A model generated the notes under the pieces. That model had not been told where the DNA came from. It searched no databases and worked only from the letters and a program-made list of their open reading frames with translations. The translations under genes were made by a program, and so were the position numbers. From Candidatus Avelusimicrobium pecoris (lineage in GTDB: Bacteria > Elusimicrobiota > Elusimicrobia > Elusimicrobiales > Elusimicrobiaceae), in the NCBI GenBank assembly GCA_902761975.1, contig CACWMG010000022.1, forward strand, positions 1-34,009: DNA of 34,009 nt, in the 5' to 3' direction. This document shows, one piece after another, positions 861 to 25,914 of this stretch (positions within the stretch are counted from its first letter, which is position 1; each line of letters starts with the position of its first letter).

Positions 861-866
861 TATAAT
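861..866 (+). promoter_or_regulatory. -10 box of the structured leader / pilin transcript
   Basis: TATAAT on the plus strand; transcription would start near 873, about 260 bases before the pilin start codon at 1133. No convincing -35 hexamer lies 16-18 bases upstream, so an activator may be needed. Confidence 0.5.
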
Positions 867-890: not shown

Positions 891-1110
891 TCTGTTTTTG
901 GAACCGTATGCGGAATACGGGGTGCCTGTTTGTGCAGGCCCAAGCGAACTCCAAAAATAGCCGATAACAGGCACAAACTAAAGGAACTTATAATCCCTTT
1001 GGGTTGTGCCGAGTGTTTGCCACCCTTTTGTGTGGTAGGCCGCGGCTATTGCGTGTGGGACCGTTCGCTTGGCTTACCCGCAAAGGCCGTTTATATTTTC
1101 CAAAGATAGA
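891..1110 (+). ncRNA. Large multi-helix structured RNA upstream of a pilin gene, class unknown
   Basis: A nested set of complementary segments is visible. P1 pairs 895-903 with 1098-1106 (closing stem, one G-U pair). P2 is a hairpin of 904-909 with 915-920 around GCGGA. P3 is a hairpin of 924-928 with 935-939. P4 pairs 940-949 with 1063-1072 (10 perfect pairs). P5 pairs 956-963 with 1043-1050 (8 pairs). P6 is a hairpin of 970-976/1004-1010 plus 978-984/996-1002 (14 pairs, one A-G mismatch). P7 is a hairpin of about 1018-1023 with 1032-1037. An alternative helix pairs 922-930 with 966-974 and would disrupt P3 and P6, as in a switch. The RNA ends just before the pilin ribosome binding site AAAGGAG (1118-1124), so it could be a 5' leader or a separate small RNA. 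Hallmarks of RNase P RNA, tmRNA, SRP RNA, T-box, cobalamin and c-di-GMP-I riboswitches were looked for and not found. Confidence 0.6.
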
Positions 1111-1132
1111 AAAAATCAAAGGAGAATGTCTT

Positions 1133-1687
1133 ATGGAAAATGTAAACGTAAAAAATGCAAAACGGGGGTTCACCCTCATTGAGTTGTTAGTTGTTGTTTT
1201 AATTATTGGCATATTAGCCGCGGTAGCAGTGCCACAGTACCAGGTAACGGTGGATAAAGCAAGGTATTCGGAATTAATGGCTTTAACCAAGCACATTAAA
1301 ACCGAACAAGAACTCTACTATTTGGCTAACGGGCATTATGCGTCCAATTGTGAAGAACTGGGGTCGGAAATTCCCAACACTTCACTTTCTTCTTGGACTC
1401 CAAAAAACTTGGTAGAAAATTCAAATAAATTTTACCTCCGATGCAACAATCCAAATCCAAGAGGTTCCGAAAGAGCTTCCGGCATAACGAACATTTTCGG
1501 CGGAACCGTTGCATACGAAATGGTATTAGATCATTCTGAACAAACCCCTGGATTTATTTGGTGCTACGCTTCTGAAGATAGCGGCGAACGAGGCAAACGA
1601 ATTTGTAATAGTTTTTGTGGACCAACACCCGAAAGAGATGACGGTTCAGCTATGTGCTACTTTATTGGTAGTCCTTCTGAAAACTAG
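1133..1687 (+). CDS. Type IV pilin-like protein (PilA/PilE/GspG class)
   Basis: 184-residue prepilin. It has a short basic leader (MENVNVKNAKRG), a class III cleavage site between Gly and Phe, Glu at +5, and a long hydrophobic alpha-1 helix (LLVVVLIIGILAAVAVPQYQ) used for membrane retention and fibre packing. The globular part holds several Cys residues (YASNCEEL, YLRCNN, IWCYASE, ICNSFC, AMCYFIG), probably disulfide-bonded. An upstream in-frame extension exists (from 1004), but the ATG at 1133 is chosen because it has AAAGGAG nine bases upstream and gives a canonical pilin leader. The gene stands alone, 15 kb from the assembly operon, behind a long structured leader. It is likely a fibre subunit of the machine encoded at 11.9-25.9 kb or of another one elsewhere. 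Confidence 0.9.
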   Translation: MENVNVKNAKRGFTLIELLVVVLIIGILAAVAVPQYQVTVDKARYSELMALTKHIKTEQELYYLANGHYASNCEELGSEIPNTSLSSWTPKNLVENSNKFYLRCNNPNPRGSERASGITNIFGGTVAYEMVLDHSEQTPGFIWCYASEDSGERGKRICNSFCGPTPERDDGSAMCYFIGSPSEN

Positions 1688-6138: not shown

Positions 6139-6663
6139 CTATCTCTTCCATAGATAGGAATAACTACCTAAACGCTTTGTAAATCCCAAGGATTTACAAG
6201 TTACTGATCCGTTGTCCAAGCAATACATTCCCTGCAATGTTTCCCACTTGGGTACAGTTTCCCAAGGTTTAGATGGATCTGGGGCATATACCCCTACTGG
6301 CTGGTATTCGGGACGATAGTAGTAAACTAAAGCATATTGCTGATTTGTATTTTGAACCTTAATATGATTCACATTAAGAAGATAATTACATCCACCGCTT
6401 CCCGATGCCGAACTTCCAAAAATCCCTGCAAGGTCCTTACAGGGAACTTGAATATCCAACTCATTTAACTTGCAAGTTTCACCTTTTCTTAACTCACATA
6501 CTTTAGCTGCCTCAGCCAAGGCTTTTAGATTTACTTCATATTCAGCTAAGCGGGATTTCTTAACCGCTTTTTGGTATTGTGGCAACGCTACCGCCGCCAA
6601 AATACCAATGATTAACACCACTACCAATAGCTCAATGAGCGTAAACGCACAACTATTTTTCAT
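6139..6663 (-). CDS. Type IV pilin-like protein (PilA/PilE/GspG class)
   Basis: 174-residue prepilin with the N-terminus MKNSCAFTLIELL. The helix is nearly identical to the pilin at 1133 (FTLIELLVVVLIIGILAAVALPQYQKAVKK), with Glu at +5. Notably the residue before the cleavage point is Ala (C-A|FTLIE) rather than the usual Gly. The globular part has six Cys (VCELRKGETC, VPCKD, GGCNY, MYCLD, VTCKS), likely forming disulfides including a C-terminal loop like the D-region of type IVa pilins. The ribosome binding site AGGAG lies eight bases before the ATG. The gene is solitary and convergent with rpoD, with a palindromic mini-element in its promoter region. Probably a major or alternative pilus subunit. 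Confidence 0.9.
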   Translation of the reverse strand: MKNSCAFTLIELLVVVLIIGILAAVALPQYQKAVKKSRLAEYEVNLKALAEAAKVCELRKGETCKLNELDIQVPCKDLAGIFGSSASGSGGCNYLLNVNHIKVQNTNQQYALVYYYRPEYQPVGVYAPDPSKPWETVPKWETLQGMYCLDNGSVTCKSLGFTKRLGSYSYLWKR

Positions 6664-13359: not shown

Positions 13360-13809
13360 CTATAAATCAACCCCGTTTGGGATTACATACTCAATTTGAC
13401 AATTACCACCACTGCCCGAAATGACAGCATACACATTAGCAGTGTTACTATTTCCACCGATAATACTACCACAATTATATACTAAATTTCTATTGAAAGA
13501 CTTTCCATTAAAATCAAACATATCCGTGAGACAGTCGGCCTCCCTGTCTGCAGTAGGGTCACACATCTGGCACTGGCTCAAATCACGCGCATACGCCTCA
13601 GGTGTTTTGGAAGCCCAAAACATATTTACTTGTGCCATGCACGATTCAATCATCTTTTGCGCGGTGATTTGATGACGCACCTGCTTAGAAGCCACCGAGC
13701 GAGAGAGCGTCACGCGCAAAATCATGGTAGCCATCCCGGCTAAAATAGCCGATAAAATAAGCACTTGTAGCAAAGCGGCTCCGCGGTTGTTTTGTTTTTT
13801 AAAATTCAT
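13360..13809 (-). CDS. PilX/GspK-like minor pilin without Glu5
   Basis: 149 residues. The leader MNFKKQNNRG is followed by AALLQVLILSAILAGMATMILR, a pilin-type hydrophobic helix after a Gly cleavage point. The fifth mature residue is Gln instead of Glu. Loss of Glu5 is known for the tip subunits GspK and some PilX proteins, which start the fibre. The Cys-rich globular part includes SCMAQ, QCQMC, DCLTD, YNCGS and NCQIE. The protein is short compared with GspK (about 300 residues), so PilX-like is the better guess. Ribosome binding site AAGGAG; five bases separate it from the preceding PilW-like gene. Confidence 0.75.
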   Translation of the reverse strand: MNFKKQNNRGAALLQVLILSAILAGMATMILRVTLSRSVASKQVRHQITAQKMIESCMAQVNMFWASKTPEAYARDLSQCQMCDPTADREADCLTDMFDFNGKSFNRNLVYNCGSIIGGNSNTANVYAVISGSGGNCQIEYVIPNGVDL

Positions 13810-13814
13810 CTTAT

Positions 13815-14300
13815 TTACTCCTTAATTGCTACGCCGTGCGGCAACATAAAAGTTTCTTCCATCACTTCCATTACCGGCGGCTCGCTATTCACCCCTAACA
13901 CCAAACGTATTTTTAAGATGGAATTAAACCCGGCGCCTCCATAGACGAACTCACACTTCGCTTTGCGAACCTGTCCTAACCAAACTTCACTGCCTCGACT
14001 AATACTTGACCCATCAAAAGTATATGTAACGTTGACAAGTGCGGAATCCGGTTCTATTTGCTTTGTCTGCGTCAGCGTCCAGGCGTTCCCGTTGCAAGTA
14101 ACGTTAGAAGATTGGTGTACATCCTGGCGCAATTGCCGCATTGCAATAGATGCCTGATTACGCAACGTCATCCGGGTACGCCCTACGTTGCTTTCCCGCA
14201 CGGCAGTCCCCGTAAGAGCGGCTAACGCCACCCCTACTAGCCCCACAATCATAACTGCCAATAAAACTTCCGTTAACGTAAAACCTTTGTTATTGTTCAT
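13815..14300 (-). CDS. PilW/GspJ-like minor pilin
   Basis: 161 residues beginning MNNNKGFTLTEVLLAVMIVGLVGVALAAL, with a Gly|Phe cleavage site and Glu at +5. The following segment (NQASIAMRQLRQDVHQSSNV) resembles the GspJ/PilW family, where the motif RxLRxDxxxA follows the helix. The start overlaps the stop of the preceding PilV-like gene by four bases (ATGA), indicating translational coupling. Part of the minor-pilin priming complex expected to start fibre assembly. Confidence 0.82.
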   Translation of the reverse strand: MNNNKGFTLTEVLLAVMIVGLVGVALAALTGTAVRESNVGRTRMTLRNQASIAMRQLRQDVHQSSNVTCNGNAWTLTQTKQIEPDSALVNVTYTFDGSSISRGSEVWLGQVRKAKCEFVYGGAGFNSILKIRLVLGVNSEPPVMEVMEETFMLPHGVAIKE

Positions 14301-14818
14301 AACTCATACCCATTACAAGAAATTGTAAATGTAATTTTATAGCCATTAAGATTTACATCCGGCTCCTTGGAAGCATCCGCCAATTTATTCTCGTGGATGT
14401 TACTACTTGCTATCGTATAAGAAAATTCCGAATTGCTCCGGTCACACACCGGTGGCAACAAACATCCAACATAATGTGTGCCACTGGCAAGCGGGGTTCT
14501 ATCCGCCGGGTAAATTTTGTCTCCTGCATTACTGGTACATCCCCCGTTGCTTATGTTTCCACAGGGGCCACAAACCAAACCGTCCGGTAAATGTGTATTT
14601 GCAAATTCATTTTGTTGCGCATGGATATATACTTTTAGTAAATCCCCCGCTTTTTCAACAGCATAAGTCATTTCTTCGCGGATATCCGGCACCGAGGACT
14701 GCCGGGAAGCCGAGAGCAACACACCAAACGCCCCCGCCGTTATCAACGCCAAAAGGCCCAAAGCGATTACGCCCTCTAGTACCGTTACACCCGCCCTATT
14801 TTTAAGTAATTGTCTCAT
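14297..14818 (-). CDS. PilV/GspI-like minor pilin
   Basis: 173 residues from the ATG at 14816-14818, chosen because AAGGAAG lies nine bases upstream; an in-frame ATG eight codons earlier would overlap the preceding gene. It starts MRQLLKNRAG|VTVLEGVIALGLLALITAGAFG, with Gly before the cleavage point and Glu at +5. The V-L-E pattern is typical of GspI/PilV. Four clustered Cys (VCGPCGN, GCTSN) plus a C-terminal pair (CLLPPVC) suggest disulfides. Overlaps the next gene by four bases. Confidence 0.8.
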   Translation of the reverse strand: MRQLLKNRAGVTVLEGVIALGLLALITAGAFGVLLSASRQSSVPDIREEMTYAVEKAGDLLKVYIHAQQNEFANTHLPDGLVCGPCGNISNGGCTSNAGDKIYPADRTPLASGTHYVGCLLPPVCDRSNSEFSYTIASSNIHENKLADASKEPDVNLNGYKITFTISCNGYEL

Positions 14819-14828
14819 AGTTACTTCC

Positions 14829-15314
14829 TTAAAAGCTCTCATCCTCTTCCACCTTCATATCATGTGTTACATGAAAAGCTTGCGTTTTATAACGTCCCGC
14901 TTTGGCATCATCTAATGCCGTAAAGGTAACCAACTTGCTACGGTCCTCACTCGTAGCTACAGGCTCAAACGTATAAGGCAAACCCTGAAAATCCTTCCAC
15001 GTAAGGTAATTGCAAGCAAACAAATCCTTCACGTCACCTGATTTAATTCCAGGATCTTCCTCCATCCATGAATCCTTAGGGCAAGCCCCAAAAGAGTAAG
15101 TGTTCATTCCATTCACGGAGCCACTTGGCAACCCTCCTTTACGATCCCGGTAGTATGAACGCATAGCTTCTGCCATTTTAATAGCCGCTGTTTTAGCCCG
15201 TTGATAAGCTACTTCAGCCCGCGCTGAACGTACCGCCGGGACCAAAAAACTGGCAATCACGGCAATGACCAACATAACAGCTAAAATTTCCATGAGTGTA
15301 AAACCTTTCTGCAT
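14829..15314 (-). CDS. Minor pilin (GspH/GspG-like)
   Basis: 161 residues from the ATG at 15312-15314, giving MQKGFTLMEILAVMLVIAVIASFLVP, a perfect class III leader with Glu at +5. AGAGGA lies upstream at a normal distance; the longer reading from 15362 overlaps the previous gene and is rejected. The start lies one base after the stop of the upstream pilin gene. After the helix comes SARAEVAYQRAKTAAIKMAEAMRSYYRDRKG, similar to GspG/GspH N-terminal helices. Exact class uncertain. Confidence 0.8.
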   Translation of the reverse strand: MQKGFTLMEILAVMLVIAVIASFLVPAVRSARAEVAYQRAKTAAIKMAEAMRSYYRDRKGGLPSGSVNGMNTYSFGACPKDSWMEEDPGIKSGDVKDLFACNYLTWKDFQGLPYTFEPVATSEDRSKLVTFTALDDAKAGRYKTQAFHVTHDMKVEEDESF

Positions 15315-15315
15315 A

Positions 15316-15792
15316 CTAAAAATCCTCTTTAAAAGCGGTTTCTCCATCCGTGCAATATTCATCCGTATCCTCGGCTATTACCCGGCTACCCGTATCGGCT
15401 TTTTTCATACACACACAAACATCTCCCCCACAGGTACCGAAATAATATGCAAAGTCCTTGTCCAAGTATTCACGTTGTTCCAAATAACCACAATTTACCA
15501 GGGTTTGCAAGGTAACGGTGCCCGTGGCGTTACACTTACCTTCTACAGCATCCGTGCGAAAATCTTGTGGATTATTTAAGCCATTTGAAGTAAAAGATGC
15601 AGAGGTATAGTCATCCTTAAAAATACGGGCTGCCATGGCTACCACCTTGGCTTTGGCCTTTGCATTTTGGATGCGAATATCGGAGCTGGATTGCCTAAAC
15701 GACTGAGTGGCAAACACAGCAAGTGCCCCAATAATCACTGCTGCCACCAATAATTCTAGTAATGTAAAACCGTGTTGATTTTTCAGTATCAT
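15316..15792 (-). CDS. Minor pilin (GspG/GspH-like)
   Basis: 158 residues from the ATG at 15790-15792: MILKNQHGFTLLELLVAAVIIGALAVFATQSF, with Gly|Phe and Glu at +5. AAGGATGA is the ribosome binding site; the longer reading starting at 15870 overlaps the preceding frameshifted pilin and is rejected. The globular region is Cys-rich (GKCNA, NCGYL, GTCGGDVCVCMKK, EYCTD). It lies between the frameshifted pilin and the GspH-like pilin. Likely one of the subunits forming the pseudopilus. Confidence 0.8.
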   Translation of the reverse strand: MILKNQHGFTLLELLVAAVIIGALAVFATQSFRQSSSDIRIQNAKAKAKVVAMAARIFKDDYTSASFTSNGLNNPQDFRTDAVEGKCNATGTVTLQTLVNCGYLEQREYLDKDFAYYFGTCGGDVCVCMKKADTGSRVIAEDTDEYCTDGETAFKEDF

Positions 15793-15802
15793 AAGGTCAT
15801 CC

Positions 15803-16230
15803 TTAGTTCTTACAATCTGCCATGCGGATGGTTTCAAATCGGCCACCTTTATAGTAACGCGCACCCGCAAAACAATCTTTGCTATCCGGGTTTGGCTTTA
15901 TCATACAGGCCACTAATGTGCCCGCTAACGGGGAAGTAGTTGTACCTTTGCAATTCGTACTATTTGCACTTGTATTGGTTAGCACATAATAGTTAAAATT
16001 TCCCTGCCCTTGAAATTTTTTGATATATTTAAAAGGAACCAAGGATTTAAGTACTCGCTCTTCTCTGGGCTTACCACTACTTGCCGCTTTTACCCATTCC
16101 TTTAATGAATATTTTTCACTGGGCTCTTGTGTTTCCCCTTGATACAAAAGAACGCCAGTGCCAGTGCACCCGCAGCAATGATAACCACAAATAACATTTC
16201 TACTAATGTAAAACCACGTTTTAAGAACAT
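15803..16230 (-). pseudogene. Pilin gene split by a one-base frameshift in a T-run
   Basis: From the ATG at 16228-16230 (ribosome binding site GGGGGA) the frame reads MFLKRGFTLVEMLFVVIIAA, a perfect prepilin leader, but stops after 42 codons at 16102. The rest of a pilin-like protein (YQGETQEPSEKYSLKEWV and onward, to 15803) is open in another frame. Adding one T to the coding-strand TTTT run (16146-16149 on the plus strand) joins both halves into AFFLYQGETQEP and gives a normal 142-residue pilin. The downstream half is intact with no other stop. Possible causes are a sequencing or assembly error, a phase-variable switch, transcriptional slippage, or a fresh mutation. It is the first pilin after pilC, the position usually taken by the major pseudopilin. 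Confidence 0.85.
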
Positions 16231-16294
16231 ACATCCCCCGTTCTTTTAAGTATGGGTTTAAAACCCTCATTTTCAAGTGTTCGCTTTTGTGTTT

Positions 16295-17515
16295 TTAGCT
16301 GCCGATTTGGGATAGTTTGAAAATAGGCAAGAAAATAGATGCCACAATAATCCCAATCAGCACCCCCACCCCTATAATCAAAATAGGGTCAATTACAGCT
16401 GAGAAACGGGCAATAAACTGATCCACGTTATCCGCGTAGAACTTAGATAGGGTAGCAATAATGCCCGGCAATTTACCGGATTCTTCCCCCATCTTCATCA
16501 TTTCTACCATCAGCCCCGGGAAAACCCCCGTAGCTCCAAACGAATCAGAAATGGCTTTCCCAGCCGCTACATCGGCGCGAACTTGTTTTAAAGCATTTCG
16601 AATAATCACATTACCTTCAAAAGATTCTTCCAAAACGCCAATAGCGTTTAAAATAGTCACCCCACTACGAAGTAATGTAGAGAGAGTAGAAAGCATGCGG
16701 TCATAATAAATGTTTTGTAAAAATTTGCCAAAAATCGGCATTGTAAGTAAAAATGAATGCCACCGTTTACGGCCATTAGGTGTACGAATATAGAAGCGGA
16801 AAGCAAATACCACCGCTACAATACACAAAATAAGCGCTACTGCATGGTTCGTAATCACGCTAGATACTTTGAGCACGATAATGGTCAGCATGGGTAACGT
16901 CAAGTTAAAGTCCGCAAAGATTTGGGCAAATGTAGGTACAATCCCCACAATAAAGTAAATCAGTACCCCTACAGACGCTATCGTCAAAATAGCCGGGTAG
17001 GTAACAGCGGTAATAATTTTACTCTTCATCCCTTCTTGCGTTTTAGTGTAAATAGAGAGCTGCATGAGTGTTTCGGCAAGTTGGCCGCCTACTTCACCGG
17101 CTTGCACCAAGGAAAGCCATACATGCTTAAACGTTTTAGGATGGTGAGACATAGCTTCATGAAGTGATTGTCCACTCGAAACATCATGCGCTATTTGCGT
17201 AAGAACCATTCCCAACGTCGGGTTAGAGGAATATTGACCTAATAGTGTAACCGCACGCACCAACGGAACACCTCCAGCAATTAAAGTAGATAACTGCTCG
17301 GCAAAAAAGGCGAGCACATGTCCCGGTACCTTGCCCCCGCGCCGCCGCGTCTGCGTTTTAGCGGCAAACAATCCACGTGTAGCCTCGGTAATATCCAGTA
17401 CCAAATATCCCCGGTTTTGCAAAGCCGCACGCAAACGGTCTTTGCTATCAGTTGTATAGGAACCCGTAAAGGTTTTTCCTTGTTCATCTCTTACTTTGTA
17501 TGTATATTTTGGCAT
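16295..17515 (-). CDS. pilC: Type IV pilus/type II secretion inner-membrane platform protein PilC/GspF
   Basis: 406 residues. Polytopic membrane protein that couples the cytoplasmic assembly ATPase to pilin insertion. Two repeated GspF domains are visible: one with FFAEQLSTLIAGGVPLVRAV and GEVGGQLAETL, the second with YYDRMLSTLSTLLRSGVTILNAI and GEESGKLPGII. Transmembrane segments lie near 170-195, 205-240 and at the C-terminus (DPILIIGVGVLIGIIVASIFLP). The ATG at 17515 (MPKYTYKVRD) is preferred over an in-frame TTG at 17521 because AGAGG lies eight bases upstream. Co-transcribed with pilB 23 bases upstream. Length is normal. Confidence 0.96.
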   Translation of the reverse strand: MPKYTYKVRDEQGKTFTGSYTTDSKDRLRAALQNRGYLVLDITEATRGLFAAKTQTRRRGGKVPGHVLAFFAEQLSTLIAGGVPLVRAVTLLGQYSSNPTLGMVLTQIAHDVSSGQSLHEAMSHHPKTFKHVWLSLVQAGEVGGQLAETLMQLSIYTKTQEGMKSKIITAVTYPAILTIASVGVLIYFIVGIVPTFAQIFADFNLTLPMLTIIVLKVSSVITNHAVALILCIVAVVFAFRFYIRTPNGRKRWHSFLLTMPIFGKFLQNIYYDRMLSTLSTLLRSGVTILNAIGVLEESFEGNVIIRNALKQVRADVAAGKAISDSFGATGVFPGLMVEMMKMGEESGKLPGIIATLSKFYADNVDQFIARFSAVIDPILIIGVGVLIGIIVASIFLPIFKLSQIGS

Positions 17516-17538
17516 AATCAAACCTCTACAACGAGCCC

Positions 17539-19281
17539 TTATTCATCAGCCGTTGTAATACTTAAAATCTCGTCCACGGTGGTTAATCCGCGAATAACTT
17601 TGCGCCAACCGTTAGCGCGTAAATTAAGTGCACCTGAAGCAACTGCCGCTTTGCGCAAGGCTATTAAATCTTGCGTTTTGTAAATAATATTACGCATTTC
17701 CTCCGTAGTGCGATATACTTCATAGATAGCGCGGCGCCCACTAAACCCGGTACCAAAACATCTGGGGCATCCCACCGATTTAAAAAACGTCCAGGAATTT
17801 GCATCCCGCGGATTTAAATGCCCCTCCCGAATAATACGGTCCAATGTGGCCGAATCCGGGATATGAGGTACCTTGCAATAAGGACATAAAATACGGATTA
17901 AACGTTGCGCTGCCACCAAGGCCAGAGAACTGGCCAGCAAGAAAGGCTCCATCCCCATATCAATCAAACGAGGAACGGCCCCCAAAGCGTCGTTTGTGTG
18001 CAATGTGGAAAGCACTAAGTGCCCGGTTAACGCAGCTTTCAAACACGCTTCGGCGGTTTCGTTATCGCGGACCTCCCCTACTAAAATAACATCTGGGTCC
18101 TGACGTAAAAATGAGCGCAAACCTGCCGCAAAGGTAAGCCCAATGGCCGGTTTTACTTGCACCTGACTAATACCCGCTAGTTTATATTCTACCGGGTCTT
18201 CCAAGGTCATAAAGTTAAGTTCACTGGTACGGATGGACGTAAGCACCGCGTTTAGGGTAGTAGATTTACCTGAACCGGTGGGCCCCGTTAAGAAAATAAG
18301 TCCATGAGGCAAATGGGCAGCTTCCAAGAATGCTTTTTGTTGGTCCGGTTCAAAGCCCAACTTCTCAATGTTCATTTCTCCAGACCCTTTATCCAAAATA
18401 CGAAGCACCAATTTTTCCCCGTACACAGCCGGGCAGACAGATACACGGACCTCGATGGAGCGGTTTTGGTAACGGATGGTAAAACTACCGTCTTGCGGCA
18501 AACGTTTTTCCGCAATATCTAACTTAGACAAAATCTTAATACGGGAAATAATGGCATTTACAGCATCTTTGGCAGGGGCCGTACGTTCGTACAAAGAACC
18601 GTCAATGCGAAAACGCAAACTTACACGTTCGTCAAACATTTCCAAGTGAATATCACTGGTTCGTTCTGAAATAGCCTGACGCAAAATGGCGTTCACCTGC
18701 TTTACATATTGCGAGGAATTTGGACTCATACGGTCCAAATCCAGTACGCCAGTAACCTCTATTTCCTCATCACTTTCCGCTGTAGCCGCCGCATCAGCCG
18801 GGGCGGCAGCTATAGTTTCATTTAAAACTTCTTCTAATAAGTTCTTATTGGAGTAAAAGCTATCAATGACACTAAGTAGTTGGGATTTGCTGGTAATGAA
18901 CGGCTGTATTTGTTTGCCGGACATCATTTTTAGGTTTTCAATTAAAAACAGGTTGGTAGGATCCAAAACGGCAACTGCTAAAGAGTCGTCCTCCATAAAC
19001 AACGGAACTACCATATTTTCACGGGCAAATTTTTCGTTAACAATGTCTTGTAAATTCTGTTCGCGCTCAGGTACTAAGATACCATTTTCTTTAGAGGCAT
19101 ATGGAATTGCAAAATGTTTAGAAAGTGCAATGGTTACCTGTTCTTCATTCGCAAAGCCGGAACGTAAAATAGCTTCTGCAATCGGCACATTGTTCTGCTT
19201 GGCATAAAGGAGCGCCTGCTTATTCTGTTCTGGAGTAATTTTTCCCTGTTCTACTAAAATTTCGTTGATCTGCTTGGCCAT
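17539..19281 (-). CDS. pilB: Type IV pilus/type II secretion assembly ATPase PilB/GspE
   Basis: 580 residues. Hexameric cytoplasmic ATPase that powers fibre extension. The N-terminal MshEN/T2SSE-N domain is at 1-145 (ILVEQGKITPEQNKQAL). An Ala/Glu-rich linker lies at about 155-180, followed by the N2 domain. Walker A is GPTGSGKST (333-341), the Asp-box region is MTLEDPVEY, Walker B is VILVGEVRD (about 398-406), and the His-box is STLHTNDA. A tetracysteine zinc motif CPYC (466-469) ... CPRC (505-508) is present. It matches GspE/PilB rather than the retraction ATPase PilT, which lacks the N-terminal domain and the zinc motif. The ATG at 19281 follows a stable intercistronic hairpin. Confidence 0.97.
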   Translation of the reverse strand: MAKQINEILVEQGKITPEQNKQALLYAKQNNVPIAEAILRSGFANEEQVTIALSKHFAIPYASKENGILVPEREQNLQDIVNEKFARENMVVPLFMEDDSLAVAVLDPTNLFLIENLKMMSGKQIQPFITSKSQLLSVIDSFYSNKNLLEEVLNETIAAAPADAAATAESDEEIEVTGVLDLDRMSPNSSQYVKQVNAILRQAISERTSDIHLEMFDERVSLRFRIDGSLYERTAPAKDAVNAIISRIKILSKLDIAEKRLPQDGSFTIRYQNRSIEVRVSVCPAVYGEKLVLRILDKGSGEMNIEKLGFEPDQQKAFLEAAHLPHGLIFLTGPTGSGKSTTLNAVLTSIRTSELNFMTLEDPVEYKLAGISQVQVKPAIGLTFAAGLRSFLRQDPDVILVGEVRDNETAEACLKAALTGHLVLSTLHTNDALGAVPRLIDMGMEPFLLASSLALVAAQRLIRILCPYCKVPHIPDSATLDRIIREGHLNPRDANSWTFFKSVGCPRCFGTGFSGRRAIYEVYRTTEEMRNIIYKTQDLIALRKAAVASGALNLRANGWRKVIRGLTTVDEILSITTADE

Positions 19282-19318
19282 GCTCGTCCCCTACAACTTT
19301 TTCCAAATACACATGCAA

Positions 19319-19348
19319 GCCTGCCCCTGTTCAATTGCAGGGGCAGGC
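19319..19348 (-). terminator. Strong intercistronic hairpin between pilQ and pilB (partial terminator or stabiliser)
   Basis: 11-bp perfect GC-rich stem (19319-19329 with 19338-19348) with an eight-base loop, 12 bases after the secretin stop codon. On the minus strand it is followed by TTGCATGTG, not a U-run, so full termination is unlikely. It may protect the upstream mRNA from 3' decay, or attenuate, and so set different levels for the secretin half and the ATPase/pilin half of the operon. Confidence 0.65.
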
Positions 19349-19360
19349 AAACACTCACAC

Positions 19361-20947
19361 TTACTCGGCCAAAATGGTCGGCGTAATAAAGATGACTAAG
19401 TCCGTGGTGCTCTTGGATTTAGAACGGCTGGTAAATAACCAACCTAACACCGGGATGTCTCCTAACAGCGGTACTTTGCGGGTTTGGTCCGTTTCACGAG
19501 ACGTAAGCAAACCGCCAATCACCACTGTTTGCCCGTTTTTCACACGCACTAAGGTAGATGCGGCACGGGTTGTGGTATCTAACGCAAAGTCAAAACCAGA
19601 TGCTATTACGTCAGAGTAGGTAGGTTGTACATACAGCGTTACATATCCTTCGCGGTTAACTTGCGGCGTTACTTGCAACGTAAGACCTACACGTTTACGC
19701 TCTGCCGAAGTAGTGGTTTGAGCCGTAGCGGTTGTACTGCCGGAATCGGTTACCGTGCGGCCTACCGTAGCATCCGTAGAAGTGGTAATAGTGGCCGTTT
19801 TGTTGTTCAAGGTGACCACTTTAGGTTTACCCAAGTATTTGGCTTCCCCACGTGTTAATAGAGACTTTAACACAATGTTAAAAGCAGATAAGTTGAGTAC
19901 ACCGGAATTAGAATCCGTATTAGTGCTAGACGAACTACCACCAGATTCGGAATTATCACCAGCTTCTTTGGAACTCGGGAAAATCCATTCCCACCCGTGA
20001 ATTTTTCCACCATCTTTATTTCTTCCGCGGAAATATTCGGCATACAGCTGACGAGTAGGAGCTGTCATAGAGACCATGGTCCCATCGGAACCACCATATT
20101 CAAAACCAAGGCTTAAACCACTAGTTTTGCTTACTTCCACAATTTGCGCTTCAATTAAAATCTGCGGAGGTTTAATATCCAACTCCGCCAAAATGTTTTC
20201 CACCTGCGGGAATACTTCCGGTACGTCTGTAATGATGAGCTTGTTGGTACGAGGATCTACCGCAATTTTTCCAACTGGGGAAAGCATGCTACCCACAATG
20301 CTTGTAATCGTGGAACCGGATGCATAAGAATCACCACCTTTTGCGTTCATGTTTGACCCACCAGACATGGTGTTTCCATCAAAAGAACCACTCGTCATAG
20401 AGGAGCCACCACTACTTACATCTTGTGGCATAATGCTGTTAAGCTCGCTACTGGCTGACCCTACACCCTGCAGTGCAATATAGCTAAGCGTATAAATTTT
20501 GGTAATAGTGTCTGGCGCGTCGTTGGAACGTTTGGTTACTACGTAACTATCACTTTTACCAATGCGCTGATAGGCCAACCCATGCACACGCAATAATGTA
20601 TCTAAGGCTTCACGCACCGTTACACGTGTCAAAGAAGCCGTCACTTTTTTATTTGCGAATTCTTCGCTCATAATAAAGTTGATTTTAGCCTGGGTAGTAA
20701 TACTATTTAAGAAAGCCGATATCGGCACATTGGCTACCCGAATGGACACTTTTCTATCTAAGGGAGAGGAAACCTCTACCTCTTTATACAGGTCCGTGGC
20801 GGCGGACGGCGTAGTCACGCTCATATCCTCCGTCAAACTTACGGTATCATTGCTAGGAAGGAGTTGTCGCTCCTGCTGCGCAAAAGCAGTGCCTACCATC
20901 CCTAACATTACAATACCGCTCAACATTACTGCTAAACGATTTGTCAT
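19361..20947 (-). CDS. pilQ: Secretin PilQ/GspD, outer-membrane pore
   Basis: 528 residues. A signal peptide lies at 1-23 (MTNRLAVMLSGIVMLGMVGTAFA). A STN/N0 domain lies near 65-130 (PISAFLNSITTQAKINFIM). An N1-type domain is interrupted by a Ser/Gly/Met-rich insert (about 180-215) and resumes at IAVDPRTNKLIITDVPEVFPQVENIL. The secretin C-domain follows, with LKSLLTRGEAKYLGKPKV, and ends with the gate signature VPLLGDIPVLGWLF and VIFITPTIL. It forms the channel through which the fibre or substrates leave. Ribosome binding site AGGAGG. It is shorter than GspD (about 650) and has no evident S-domain, so an outer-membrane lipoprotein pilotin may not be needed. Confidence 0.95.
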   Translation of the reverse strand: MTNRLAVMLSGIVMLGMVGTAFAQQERQLLPSNDTVSLTEDMSVTTPSAATDLYKEVEVSSPLDRKVSIRVANVPISAFLNSITTQAKINFIMSEEFANKKVTASLTRVTVREALDTLLRVHGLAYQRIGKSDSYVVTKRSNDAPDTITKIYTLSYIALQGVGSASSELNSIMPQDVSSGGSSMTSGSFDGNTMSGGSNMNAKGGDSYASGSTITSIVGSMLSPVGKIAVDPRTNKLIITDVPEVFPQVENILAELDIKPPQILIEAQIVEVSKTSGLSLGFEYGGSDGTMVSMTAPTRQLYAEYFRGRNKDGGKIHGWEWIFPSSKEAGDNSESGGSSSSTNTDSNSGVLNLSAFNIVLKSLLTRGEAKYLGKPKVVTLNNKTATITTSTDATVGRTVTDSGSTTATAQTTTSAERKRVGLTLQVTPQVNREGYVTLYVQPTYSDVIASGFDFALDTTTRAASTLVRVKNGQTVVIGGLLTSRETDQTRKVPLLGDIPVLGWLFTSRSKSKSTTDLVIFITPTILAE

Positions 20948-20997
20948 CTATCCTCCTGTGTGAGTGTACTACAAATTTACAAAATACTTCTTACTGC

Positions 20998-21537
20998 TTA
21001 CAAACTAACCTTCTTTACAAATTTATGCCCTTTATAAGAAAACGTTACCGAATCTGCTCCTACCGCCACAATTTTGGCCCCTTTGTAAGTATTGCCGATG
21101 GTGTATAGTTTCCCACCAATCAGTACTTCTTTATCTATTAGACCACTGATTTTGATTTGGTTACGTACTAAAATAGTGGGGTCTCTGATAATCATTCGTT
21201 CCCACTCACGGCGGCGCTCTTCCTCCGCTAAACGCTTGCGTTCTTCTTCTTCTTTGCGTTTGCGTTCTGCAGCCTCCGCAGCTAAACGCATCTTTTCACG
21301 GTGTTGTAATACCATCACATCTTCTGCCGAAAGCATCGGATCGCGATTTCCTTTTAAAGAAAATTTTACATTAGGCTTAGAAACAACTCCTGGGGCAGTG
21401 TCTTCCGTTTCCGCCTCAGCGTCAACACCAGGGATGCTCGTGCTACGTTCAAGACGATCCGCTTGCGCGTACCCCAAGCTAGAAACACACACTCCCAAAA
21501 CGACCAAAAACCCGGTTAAAATGGTAAAACGCTTCAT
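20998..21537 (-). CDS. pilP: PilP-like pilus assembly protein
   Basis: 179 residues: signal peptide at 1-24 (MKRFTILTGFLVVLGVCVSSLGYA), low-complexity acidic linker, the short motif KGNRDPML (the RDPF-type motif of PilP/GspC partners), a charged Lys/Glu/Arg coiled coil at about 85-115, and a C-terminal beta-rich domain (IKISGLIDKEVLIGGKLYTIGNTYKGAKIV) resembling the PilP/GspC homology region that binds the secretin N0 domain. It lacks the lipobox of classical PilP. The start overlaps the stop of pilO (TAATG). Position between pilO and the secretin supports the call. Confidence 0.78.
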   Translation of the reverse strand: MKRFTILTGFLVVLGVCVSSLGYAQADRLERSTSIPGVDAEAETEDTAPGVVSKPNVKFSLKGNRDPMLSAEDVMVLQHREKMRLAAEAAERKRKEEEERKRLAEEERRREWERMIIRDPTILVRNQIKISGLIDKEVLIGGKLYTIGNTYKGAKIVAVGADSVTFSYKGHKFVKKVSL

Positions 21538-22322
21538 TACTGATTTCCTCCACTTTTCGGTTCATTCTGCGTCTGTGCTGTCGCCTCTTTCTCGGCTTGC
21601 ATTTTCTTAATCTGCTGCGCATAATCTTTAAACAATTTAGGTGCGTACTTTTCTTTAGGAAATACCGTATTAAACGTTACATTTACAGCATTTTTCCCTA
21701 ACGCTTCCGGCGCAGTTTGTTTAGAAATTGTTACTTCAGATATCCGCAAGAAATCATCTCCATTTTCAATATCTGCAATCAATTTGCCAATCTGCGCAAA
21801 AGACTCTTCAAACTTTACCGGTTGCACCAACGCAGTATATGTTTTTTGCACAGATTCCGTAAAATTTCCATCAATATCCGGTGTGATCTTATGTGTTTCA
21901 AAAATGTTGATTAAACGCCTAAGCATCCAATCATTTTTTTGCTCAATATTTGGAAATATCGGCTCCAAACGTAACAACTGCTGTTTATTTTCTGTATAGT
22001 CCTCTTCGTTGGCTTGCTGAATATTAATAGACGCTATCTGGTCTTTAATTTTGGCTTCACTTTGAGATAGCTTTCCGCTCACAAAACGGACCAATAAAAA
22101 CAGCACCAACAATACGACAATCTGCTTCACAAACAGATTAAATTTACCTTCGTGCGCAACTACCTGAACATCCTCTAATCCCCGCTTGACATTTGCCACG
22201 GCCGGGCGAGCAAGCACTTTAGTTAGAGCGTTGGGCTCTTTGGTGGCAGACGGTTGCTTTGCCTGTGAGCTTTGTGCCTCTCCCGAAAATTTGCTTTTTA
22301 ATTTTTCAAAATCTATCGCCAT
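21537..22322 (-). CDS. pilO: PilO/GspM-like inner-membrane alignment protein
   Basis: 261 residues. A cytoplasmic N-terminus of about 70 residues rich in Lys/Gln/Ala is followed by one transmembrane helix (about 76-92, IVVLLVLFLLVRFVSG). A periplasmic coiled coil comes next, then a ferredoxin-like domain (EESFAQIGKLIADIENGDDFLRISEV) typical of PilO/GspM. A Gln/Lys/Glu-rich tail closes the protein. The gene lies two bases downstream of the PilMN fusion and overlaps pilP. It is expected to dimerise with the PilN part of that fusion in the alignment complex between the ATPase and the secretin. Confidence 0.82.
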   Translation of the reverse strand: MAIDFEKLKSKFSGEAQSSQAKQPSATKEPNALTKVLARPAVANVKRGLEDVQVVAHEGKFNLFVKQIVVLLVLFLLVRFVSGKLSQSEAKIKDQIASINIQQANEEDYTENKQQLLRLEPIFPNIEQKNDWMLRRLINIFETHKITPDIDGNFTESVQKTYTALVQPVKFEESFAQIGKLIADIENGDDFLRISEVTISKQTAPEALGKNAVNVTFNTVFPKEKYAPKLFKDYAQQIKKMQAEKEATAQTQNEPKSGGNQ

Positions 22323-22324
22323 AA

Positions 22325-23920
22325 TTAACGCCCCCTCGATTTAGGCTCATTTTCACAAGTAAGAACAAACTGAGTTCCTTCTTTAGAGGCCCTTGTTTTT
22401 CTAAGCGTACTGGCTGAAATATTTACATAACGAATATTGGCGTTGCGACACAAGCGTTTTAACGCGGGTTGTTTGGCAATAGACTCTTTAAATTGCCCCC
22501 CTACCAATAAATCTTCCGTACCTTCTTTACCAGCGGAAATATATCCCTCTAATGTCAGTTTTCCTTCCCCTTGGTGACGTAGCGGAAAACTTGCCGAAAA
22601 CGAAACTTTAGTTAACCACATTTTGGGCAAGACCGCTTGCGCAACCGCATTTAGTACCGGGGTAGCTAATGGACTATTGGCATACACATCACTCAAAATT
22701 TCATTTTGGTTTTTAATATTATCAAGGTTGGTTTGTAACTGCGAGGAGGTCAAACCTTTAAAATCTTCCAAAGTTCTGCTCGCAGCCGCTTGTTTTTTCT
22801 TAAGCTGATAGTTTGCAGCCAAAACGTCCAAATATCCTTTTCCTACATATAATAACATCAACGCGGCAATAAGTAGCGTCACTTTCCATACAGTCCAACT
22901 GGCGTTAAACTCGTATGTACTCAAACGTTTTCCTTTTGTAAAATCAATATCCGGGGTCTTAGGATCCAAAAATTTACTACTCGCTCCAATAGCAGCTACT
23001 TCACCGGCCGATTTGGTTTCAATACCAAAAACTTCACTTAAATCCCATTTACGTACGGGCTTACGGGCATCAGCTTCTAAGGCAGCAATCCAAGGATCCA
23101 CTTGATATCCCATAATCACAGCTTCTTCAAATGGATCTCGCTCTAATTGCTTCGAGATAAATTCCGCACTATTTGTGATTTCAAAACGCCGTCTTTCAGC
23201 CGGAACAGAACCCGAAATTTCCACATCTCTCTCTAACACCGGCACCACACCATTCAAAAACACAAAATTGGCCGAATCTTTTCCAAAGAACGAATAAATA
23301 CGCCCGCCTTTACCAACGGCTTCCTTATCGTTATCACTAAAAGCACGTCCTAAAGAAATACAGGCCGGCTCTACAGACACCAAATCCAATCCAACAGCCT
23401 TAAGCCCTCTTTCCAAACGATTGATAATGGTTTTTGTAGTCATGGCAAATACAACACCCAGACGTTTTTGTTTGGTAGCAGCCGTTTCAAACTCATATGC
23501 ATGATATGCATAAACAGCTCTGTCAAAAGAAAAATGGATATACTTGCGCGCCTCATTGGGGATTCCTTCCGCCCATTCTGTACGCTTAAGAGGAATACCG
23601 ATCACAAAGTGACGTATCAAACAAAATTCCGGCGCTAAACTTACTACTACTTTTGTGGTGTTCCATGTTTTTTTGGCAGTCACCTTAGCAAGTGCATCCT
23701 TCCAATAGTTCATGGTAAAAAAAGATTCATTCAAATCAAGGGGTTTAAGTTGTCTCTTATCTAACAAATTAACCGGCACACGAATCAAGGACTCTAACAC
23801 CAGCCCCCCATCCCGTTTAGCACTCTGGGCAACATAAATTTCATCAATCCCAATATAAATCCCCAGACAATCTGGGTGTGCCTTCATGTTTGTACCAATT
23901 AATACTTCTGATAAATTCAT
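22325..23920 (-). CDS. PilM-PilN fusion (GspL-like) alignment protein
   Basis: 531 residues. Residues about 15-320 resemble PilM, an actin-fold cytoplasmic protein (GIYIGIDEIYVAQSAK, KVVVSLAPEF, then NEARKYIHFSFDRAVYAYHAYE, and GLKAVGLDLVSVEPACISLGRAF). A transmembrane helix lies at about 343-360 (WKVTLLIAALMLLYVG). A periplasmic coiled coil and PilN-like domain follow (SRTLEDFKGLTSSQLQTNLDNI, then VLNAVAQAVLPKMWLTKVSF). In type IVa pili PilM and PilN are separate; here they are one chain, as in GspL of type II secretion. Start ATG at 23920 with AAGGGGA upstream. The clear nucleotide-binding signature of PilM is not obvious. Confidence 0.8.
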   Translation of the reverse strand: MNLSEVLIGTNMKAHPDCLGIYIGIDEIYVAQSAKRDGGLVLESLIRVPVNLLDKRQLKPLDLNESFFTMNYWKDALAKVTAKKTWNTTKVVVSLAPEFCLIRHFVIGIPLKRTEWAEGIPNEARKYIHFSFDRAVYAYHAYEFETAATKQKRLGVVFAMTTKTIINRLERGLKAVGLDLVSVEPACISLGRAFSDNDKEAVGKGGRIYSFFGKDSANFVFLNGVVPVLERDVEISGSVPAERRRFEITNSAEFISKQLERDPFEEAVIMGYQVDPWIAALEADARKPVRKWDLSEVFGIETKSAGEVAAIGASSKFLDPKTPDIDFTKGKRLSTYEFNASWTVWKVTLLIAALMLLYVGKGYLDVLAANYQLKKKQAAASRTLEDFKGLTSSQLQTNLDNIKNQNEILSDVYANSPLATPVLNAVAQAVLPKMWLTKVSFSASFPLRHQGEGKLTLEGYISAGKEGTEDLLVGGQFKESIAKQPALKRLCRNANIRYVNISASTLRKTRASKEGTQFVLTCENEPKSRGR

Positions 23921-23940
23921 CCCAACAATCCCCTTAATAA

Positions 23941-25914
23941 TTAGTAGGAAACTTCAGTATATTCCTCTTCATATGGCATGCCATACGGGTTATCTACCGC
24001 ACTAACAGATGAAGTAGCACTATATCCACCTGCATCCGAAGGCAATGGCTCATACTCTTGGAGGGCTACTGTCGACTGTGTCCCGACCGCGGAATCCCCG
24101 GTTACTACATTACGCACTGTTTTGGTAACCGTGTAGGAACTGCTATCCGTGGCCGTTGCTTGAGCTTGTTCATCCATAGAATGCTCTACCGGTTGAACAA
24201 TATTTTCCTTCACTTCCACCACTTCTTTCTGCTCTACACTTTTTGCGCATGCATCACAATGCAGAACACGACCCGGTTTTTTCCATAAACGGCTTGCCTT
24301 GTAACCAGTGGTCACACTTTGTGCATTTTTCTTACTTCCTGGGCAAGTTCCCATTTGGCAAGAAGGAGCGGGATCCGGCGCACAACGCACAATTAAACGG
24401 CGACGCAAGGTTTGTTTTTCACCTTTCAAATCCACCCCGCTAAGTACCACCGTATATTTTCCACAAGGCAATTCCGGCCCAATAATTCCTTTACGTCCGT
24501 TCCATAAAATTTGGTGATAAACCGGTGAAAATCCTTCCAACTGACGTACAATATAATAATTACCATCCCGTCCATGTTGAATTATTTGTAATACCCAATT
24601 ATCCAGCGTATTGACTGTTTCTAATACAGAAAAATCAATGGCATACGCTTCCCCTAGCGAACGGTCAATCGCATGGCAAGGAGGCACAATGGCCATGCTC
24701 AGTAGCGGAGCTTTTTCATGTTCTTCATTTTCTAGCAACCGAGTAGGTAACTCGGCGTCATAATCAAACACAATAGAAAGACCTTTTAAATTAGAAAATT
24801 GCGGCGGAACTTCTTCATCTACTAGTCCCATGTTGTAGTGTAATTTGCCTTGAGAGATACCTCTTTTAACCAAATAAGATTGTAACGCCATAGCTTGGCG
24901 GATACCGCCTAATGTAACATCATCTGTGTAAGAACCTGCCGGCAAAATAATATAACGTGCTCCTTGAGTCAATGCAAGTAATTGATAAATATTATTCAAA
25001 TCGGTAAGTGCATCTGAACGAAACGAATTTTGGTAAAACAACACATTATCATCAATATCCAATGCATCCGGTCTCCCATCCGAACGCAAATACAAATGCA
25101 TGCCTTTATTAGCCCCTAAATTGGCAATAACACTATCAGTCATGCTTTGCAGTTTTTGGGTGGTATATTTGTTACGAGCCTCTACCGCTTGGGGACTGGT
25201 AAGGTCCGCAAAAACGGAAGAAGCCACAGGTGCAGATTCACTCGCCACAGGCGCAGATTTGTCGACCACCGCCACGGATTCAGATCCGCTGACTACCGGC
25301 TCCATGTTTGCCGGCAACGACGCTATTTCCTGCGCTTGCAGTTGATTTTCTTCTGCTTTTAAATCTGCTTGCGTCGTGGTTTTTCCATTGGCCGGTTGCA
25401 CCCCCAACACGGCAGAAACATCCGTCAATGGTTTCTCTTTGACCACAGGTTGTTCTCCTTTTTGCAAATATTCTTGCAATTGGCGTTCTTCTATCTGCTC
25501 CGTCAGTGTTTTAGGGGTAAGGGCTTCTTTTTGTTTTACCACTTCTTCAGAGTTAGTGGCCAATGTGTCCAATTCTTCCGTACCGTAGTTGGCTAAATTT
25601 TCCGCTTTATTCACGATGGTCTGTGTCGGTTGATCAGGGAAATTAACGTTCACTTCCACCGGGTTTTTGATACCGCCAAGTTGGTTGTGAATCGCGTCAA
25701 TATACTTATTGGCTAGGGCTACTTGTTCACTATCTCCGGTTGTAAGCACGTCAATAAAATAATCCATAGCTTTGCCATTATCATTTTTTTGATATGCTTC
25801 AATACCTTTCTGCAACTGTTTTTCTGCAGATGCAGCTTCCCCCGGCACAGTCGCCAGAAGTAAGCCGCCTGTCAATGCTAATATGCACCACCAGTTTTTT
25901 GTCATTTTGCTCAT
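23941..25914 (-). CDS. Large exported envelope protein with OmpA-like and FlgD-Ig-like regions, first gene of the pilus operon
   Basis: 657 residues, not matched to a named family. A signal peptide spans about 1-28. A TPR-like helical pair follows (EKQLQKGIEAYQKNDNGKAM). A long Glu/Gln/Val/Ser linker covers about 100-250. Residues about 290-363 are a degenerate OmpA/peptidoglycan-binding-like domain (LFYQNSFRSDALTDLNNIYQ ... IRQAMALQSYLVKRGISQGKL) lacking the usual GHTD. Residues about 437-511 resemble a FlgD-type Ig fold (YHQILWNGRKGIIGPELPCG then KYTVVLSG). Cys pairs follow (SCQMGTC, HCDAC), then a Ser/Thr/Tyr-rich tail. Its place at the head of the operon suggests a structural role in the envelope-spanning part of the machine, comparable to FimV/TsaP-type peptidoglycan anchors. 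That role is an inference. Confidence 0.7.
   Translation of the reverse strand: MSKMTKNWWCILALTGGLLLATVPGEAASAEKQLQKGIEAYQKNDNGKAMDYFIDVLTTGDSEQVALANKYIDAIHNQLGGIKNPVEVNVNFPDQPTQTIVNKAENLANYGTEELDTLATNSEEVVKQKEALTPKTLTEQIEERQLQEYLQKGEQPVVKEKPLTDVSAVLGVQPANGKTTTQADLKAEENQLQAQEIASLPANMEPVVSGSESVAVVDKSAPVASESAPVASSVFADLTSPQAVEARNKYTTQKLQSMTDSVIANLGANKGMHLYLRSDGRPDALDIDDNVLFYQNSFRSDALTDLNNIYQLLALTQGARYIILPAGSYTDDVTLGGIRQAMALQSYLVKRGISQGKLHYNMGLVDEEVPPQFSNLKGLSIVFDYDAELPTRLLENEEHEKAPLLSMAIVPPCHAIDRSLGEAYAIDFSVLETVNTLDNWVLQIIQHGRDGNYYIVRQLEGFSPVYHQILWNGRKGIIGPELPCGKYTVVLSGVDLKGEKQTLRRRLIVRCAPDPAPSCQMGTCPGSKKNAQSVTTGYKASRLWKKPGRVLHCDACAKSVEQKEVVEVKENIVQPVEHSMDEQAQATATDSSSYTVTKTVRNVVTGDSAVGTQSTVALQEYEPLPSDAGGYSATSSVSAVDNPYGMPYEEEYTEVSY

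Follow-up and report, generated by a model that had tools for sequence, protein, structure and literature searches.

The 34,009-nucleotide stretch of Candidatus Avelusimicrobium pecoris analysed here (the window) contains a type IV pilin-like gene preceded by about 220 bases, for which the original prediction had proposed a complex multi-helix leader RNA with a possible switch. The locus raises the question of what this segment is and how it might act on the gene that follows it. All results for the leader RNA family reported below are computational.

The window leader and its fold

Region 880-1150 folds at -104.8 kcal/mol, against -71.8 +/- 4.8 kcal/mol for dinucleotide shuffles (z -6.9, 0/200). 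A multi-helix leader RNA before the pilin gene is borne out by this value and by compensatory changes in every major helix. The complementary strand likewise folds strongly (z -5.6), as expected from long inverted repeats, and the leader RNA is assigned to the sense strand on the basis of gene position and covariation. Its features are as follows.

861-866 (+): candidate -10 box TATAAT, proposed from the letters only
891-903 (+): 5' switch strand CUGUUUUUGGAA, predicted to pair with either 950-960 (P1) or 1098-1110 (P1')
904-920 (+): P2 hairpin, with a GNNGA-like pentaloop in the window and a GAAA tetraloop in the distant family f21 (see below)
924-939 (+): P3 hairpin, whose sequence and length vary among copies
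940-949 (+): P9 5' strand, unique to each copy
950-963 (+): P1 3' strand and P8 5' strand (CCAAAAAUAGCCG), conserved in both families
970-1010 (+): P4 hairpin, with the apical palindrome UUAUAA at 988-993, a predicted homodimer kissing loop
1015-1040 (+): P5 hairpin
1043-1050 (+): shared strand CGGCUAUU, pairing with either 956-963 (P8) or 1082-1089 (P6 base), which are mutually exclusive
1043-1099 (+): P6 hairpin (1043-1053 with 1079-1089) and U-rich tail, terminator-like, with a U-run in the copies
1063-1072 (+): P9 3' strand, inside the P6 loop, supported by the permutation test
1089-1147 (+): P7 in the predicted fold, 1089-1108 with 1127-1147, covering the AUG
1118-1124 (+): Shine-Dalgarno (SD) sequence AAAGGAG
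1133-1687 (+): type IV pilin-like gene, ATG at 1133, Pfam N_methyl PF07963 (36.7 bits)

The helices first proposed for this segment are mostly correct. The long hairpins correspond to P2-P6, and the "closing stem" is P1' (891-903 with 1098-1110). The long-range stem of 10 bp also holds: it joins 940-949 with 1063-1072 as P9, which has the strongest support of all helices in the family. The 5' arm of P7 and the 3' arm of P1' overlap, and P7 covers the AUG but not the SD in the window. The helix originally put forward as the switch (922-930 with 966-974) is a perfect 9-bp match in the window; of the 109 representative copies, none but the window itself pairs this well, and the two segments match no better than under permuted pairing (z +1.8). 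It was rejected as a coincidence confined to the window. From the candidate -10 box, transcription would begin some 10-20 bases ahead of P1; in other copies, the spacing between -10-like hexamers and the P1 downstream of them is scattered, often 23-35 bases.

A search of the leader and ten loci of relatives against Rfam 15 gave no family above the gathering threshold, the sole match in the window being a tRNA elsewhere, and permissive scans of the leader and its relatives returned chance-level matches only. Likewise, no description of this leader RNA was found in the literature, within incomplete coverage. The leader belongs to a previously undescribed family of RNAs that Rfam 15 does not contain, in agreement with the first reading, which recognised no known RNA.

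Distribution of the family and its downstream genes

By DNA search, diverged copies are numerous both in the 1.24-Mb genome to which the window belongs, an Elusimicrobiaceae MAG, and in its relatives. A covariance model built from 25 own-genome copies and restricted to the core helices P8, P4 and P5 detected 43-44 sense copies in this genome; it also matched 55 of the 61 genomes sampled from the same genus, all 18 listed genomes of the sister genus g15, and several genera of a distant family of the phylum, f21, which is probably Endomicrobia. Other sampled genera of the window's own family had no covariance-model match. Among them, the single-contig 1.6-Mb genome G091 has no RNA found, yet holds 76 N-methyl genes, and pilins can thus exist without the RNA.

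Copy number in sister genomes ranges from 0 to about 130, some genomes having only 1-3, and is highest in G084 (at least 130; 1.7 Mb), G026 (at least 97; 1.1 Mb, 72% complete) and G065 (at least 54), in a set composed mostly of MAGs with breaks near leader and pilin genes and a copy sample biased to high scorers. To our knowledge, about 130 copies in a 1.7-Mb genome is among the highest per-genome numbers of any structured cis element. Of the named records with an exact match to a conserved 19-mer, nearly all are Elusimicrobiales MAGs, and many of these come from rumen or gut samples. An alphaproteobacterial MAG locus had an exact 19-mer match but no covariance-model match, and was treated as a chance occurrence. 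No match to the leader RNA was found in viral contigs, phages or plasmids.

In the own genome, an N_methyl match follows on the same strand within 700 bases after 39 of 44 copies (2.4% expected by chance), and two of the five exceptions are close to a contig end. The leader is present before 39 of the 84 N_methyl genes of this genome; the pilin gene, described at first as solitary, is so in its local placement but is one of about 84 genome-wide. In the wider sample, an SD and an ORF start lie downstream of 140 of 144 copies; 107 or more of these ORFs resemble pilin genes. The distance from the P6 end to the start codon is mostly 31-57 bases (minimum to upper quartile), and the end of the RNA just before the ribosome binding site, proposed for the window, is a constant placement across copies.

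Non-pilin targets confirmed with Pfam include a type I restriction R N-terminal domain, a rhamnan synthesis RgpF protein and a zinc-ribbon protein. In the distant family, the leaders precede pilins and other surface or DNA-modification-type genes, with about half of the callable targets being pilins of a different sequence type (12/40 by strict assignment and several more by eye). A role of the RNA in controlling pilus production would fit its usual placement before pilin genes, but the family is genome-wide and also stands before some non-pilin genes. Inspection by eye adds putative glycosyltransferases, lipoproteins and a DNA methyltransferase to the targets and, at the distant-family loci L226, L231 and L232, DNA methyltransferase-like and glycosyltransferase-like genes. 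Both classes are often phase-variable in other bacteria.

Covariation and competing helices

For each helix, the energy of pairing between the two strands of one copy was set against that obtained after strands had been permuted between copies, using 109 representatives of less than 80% identity. P9 pairs at -16.75 kcal/mol, versus -6.59 kcal/mol when permuted (z -42.7). Its 10-bp sequence differs in every copy with self-pairing always kept, a result repeated independently in the distant family (-15.1 versus -5.6). The same 109 copies gave z -13.0 for the base and z -8.6 for the upper part of P6, z -7.2 for P8, z -14.2 for P7, z -3.1 for P1, and z -1.8 for P1', or -4.4 with its outer extension. 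In an Infernal-fitted alignment of 67 distinct rows, 95.3% of the cells are paired, with two-sided changes at 26 of 32 pairs, and 93.9% are paired in the distant family; such alignments lean to structure, whereas the permutation tests for P9, P6, P7, P1 and P1' are independent of the fit. Two-sided changes occur at all 15 modelled pairs of P4 and at all nine pairs of P5 (98% of cells paired). The observed covariation was matched in 0/500 shuffles and by no slide control in either family. Collection of homologues, which had been suggested as a check, revealed compensatory changes in every major helix, and not a sequence conserved without covariation.

The arrangement of these helices points to two alternative folds. 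P6 and P8 share CGGCUGUU and cannot coexist, and both covary; the P1' and P7 strands overlap in 61 of the 63 copies with both predicted. The switch anticipated in the original prediction thus finds its counterpart in real competing helices, P6 versus P8 and P7 versus P1', though not in the helix that was named. Folds with P8 or P6 forced are near-isoenergetic (-98.4 versus -97.8, median difference 0.65 kcal/mol), and pairing of the SD-AUG region is moderately higher in the P6 state (0.54) than in the P8 state (0.38). P6 is followed by a U-run, with at least five T in the next nine bases in 109/109 copies and TTTT in 98/109, and, as a GC-rich hairpin with a U-run, would qualify as an intrinsic terminator. 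It was not listed by a simple terminator scan, its loop exceeding the 3-8 bases of the scan. Against a switch, the P6 loop is large for an intrinsic terminator, the U-tract of the window is interrupted (UUUAUAUUUU), the support for P1' weakens when its extension is left out, the contrast in SD-AUG pairing is moderate, and some copies have no predicted P7.

We favour, with a probability of roughly 0.7, a cis-acting bistable mRNA leader, that is, a riboswitch-like platform that would control each pilin or surface gene it precedes. As judged by sequence comparison, the family has the conserved structured 5' leader and the mutually exclusive helices of a riboswitch. A new regulatory leader RNA is supported by the lack of an Rfam match, the compensatory changes, the constant placement, and the covariation of both competing helices.

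We infer which of the two folds is ON. In the OFF fold, the 5' strand would pair locally as P1, and CGGCUGUU would pair downstream to form the P6 hairpin which, together with the U's, would act as an intrinsic terminator, while P7 would cover the SD and/or the start codon. In the ON fold, CGGCUGUU would instead pair with AAACAGCCG as P8, a putative antiterminator extended by the copy-specific P9 and capped by a P4-P5-P8 three-way junction, and the 5' strand would shift to P1'. Because the 3' arm of P1' is the sequence needed by P7, the start site would be freed in this fold. The trigger may be a metabolite, a protein, temperature or the dimerisation itself. As to the signal, an attempt to exclude c-di-GMP through the absence of GGDEF genes failed, since these are present in all genomes tested; c-di-GMP is thus a possible signal, albeit not a specifically supported one.

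The P4 loop, the P9 keys and alternative readings

Nearly every copy has a palindromic P4 apical loop. A palindrome of at least six bases is found in 81 of 109 P4 loops, versus 11.3 in shuffled loops, while those of P3 and P5 are at chance level. The loops fall into discrete types. The 6-nt types are UAAUUA, UUAUAA, UUCGAA, UCAUGA, UUGCAA, CAGCUG, CUAUAG and CUCGAG, mostly in 9-base loops, preceded by two loop bases and followed by one; shorter types are GAUC, GUAC, AGCU and GGCC (4 nt), and GACG. A second occurrence of the hexamer within the leader was seen in just one of the 81 copies. The distant family shows a weaker palindrome signal (at least six bases in 21/46). Comparison of the copies thus demonstrates, at the level of sequence, the palindromes as well as the helices, their mutual exclusivity and the gene association.

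A self-complementary loop is unable to pair with itself within one hairpin, and pairing between two molecules is therefore the natural reading. The P4 loop has the self-complementary apex of a kissing-loop homodimer and probably lets two leaders kiss and dimerise. The HIV-1 DIS loop consists of a self-complementary core flanked by unpaired bases, and P4 displays the same layout. Known palindromic kissing-loop dimerisers include the HIV-1 DIS and the oskar 3' UTR (6 nt), the hatchet ribozyme (4 nt), and, with 2 nt, the MoMuSV GACG loop and guanidine-II (PMC7357161); 6-, 4- and 2-nt (GACG) palindromes are all present in P4. Unlike these, the P4 loops belong to bacterial mRNA leaders, with many interchangeable palindromes per genome embedded in a switch, and their dimerisation is predicted.

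The P9 keys of the own genome are 31 distinct sequences in 31 copies, and the cognate partner is the best in 29 of them. No selection for orthogonality was detected among these keys, as non-cognate pairing is no weaker than that of shuffled keys, and their divergence may therefore be drift. It is conceivable, but rather improbable, that each mRNA carries a private P9 key and a shared P4 kissing loop, and that dimers within a palindrome class coordinate or exclude the expression of paralogous surface genes. If true, this would represent RNA-based contingency control over tens to more than 100 surface genes, without DNA rearrangement. Still less probable is an exclusion of pilin genes in which the P4 palindromes common to different leaders would let them act on one another in trans and limit the number of pilins produced at a time, while the P9 keys would hold every leader to its own intramolecular fold. 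The P4 loop types common to the copies of one genome, the rarity of the hexamer elsewhere in the leader, and the all-different keys with their cognate preference are consistent with it, whereas the possible drift of the keys and the genomes with only 1-3 copies argue against it.

A less elaborate explanation, unlikely though not negligible, is a protein-binding leader or an mRNA-stability or localisation element with no ligand-driven switch, its alternative pairings being folding intermediates. In its favour, few strongly conserved unpaired bases lie outside the switch strands and the P2/P5 edges, and the palindromic loops of P4 are similar to elements through which mRNAs such as oskar dimerise (PMC7357161). 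A static element, however, needs neither the covariation of P6 and P8 on a shared strand nor the overlap of P7 with P1', and the conserved U-run after P6 also stands against it. The poorest candidate, with very little probability, is a repeat acting at the DNA level, either as a mobile element or as a recombination cassette that varies the pilins. The many dispersed copies per genome, their very uneven number and their position near contig ends recall such repeats, but the paired bases are the most divergent between copies with pairing still kept, the P6 end keeps its distance ahead of the start codon, and the viral, phage and plasmid searches were negative; the covariation, as read from the sequences, already disfavours this explanation.

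The bistable leader can be compared with two groups of known RNAs. The c-di-GMP riboswitches precede surface and pilus genes in C. difficile (PMC6200980). Like these platforms, which use terminator/antiterminator and SD-sequestering arrangements, the family consists of 5' leaders with competing helices before surface-structure genes, in several copies per genome. It differs from them in having no Rfam sequence or structure match, a larger size of about 200 bases, up to about 130 copies, a copy-specific P9 and a palindromic P4 loop. OLE, ROOL, GOLLD and HEARO are large ornate bacterial RNAs, and share with the leader a complex multi-helix fold and a restricted phylogenetic range. By contrast, the leader lies in cis directly before genes, is highly multi-copy and has no Rfam match to them. 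It would add a new class to the bacterial regulatory RNAs, linked to a large expansion of pilins in uncultured gut bacteria, and offers a handle on how small genomes control dozens of near-redundant surface proteins. The copy-specific helix and the palindromic loops open RNA dimerisation in bacterial gene control to direct tests.

Other pilin loci were also inspected. Many prepilins of the own genome (e.g., at L043, L067, L042, L066 and L060) have N-terminal extensions of up to about 107 residues before FTLIEL that resemble translated dispersed repeats (VMLNSFQHLHLNQTL...EILNQVQDD), which suggests insertion of repeats into the region coding for the pilin leader peptide. The window contains a second solitary pilin gene at 6139-6663 (-) without a leader RNA; upstream of it, to about 6870, lies another inverted-repeat-like sequence (gatcctgaatcaagttcaggatgaca). 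The region 13360-25914 (-) holds a cluster resembling type II secretion or type IV pilus assembly, with several pseudopilin-like ORFs.
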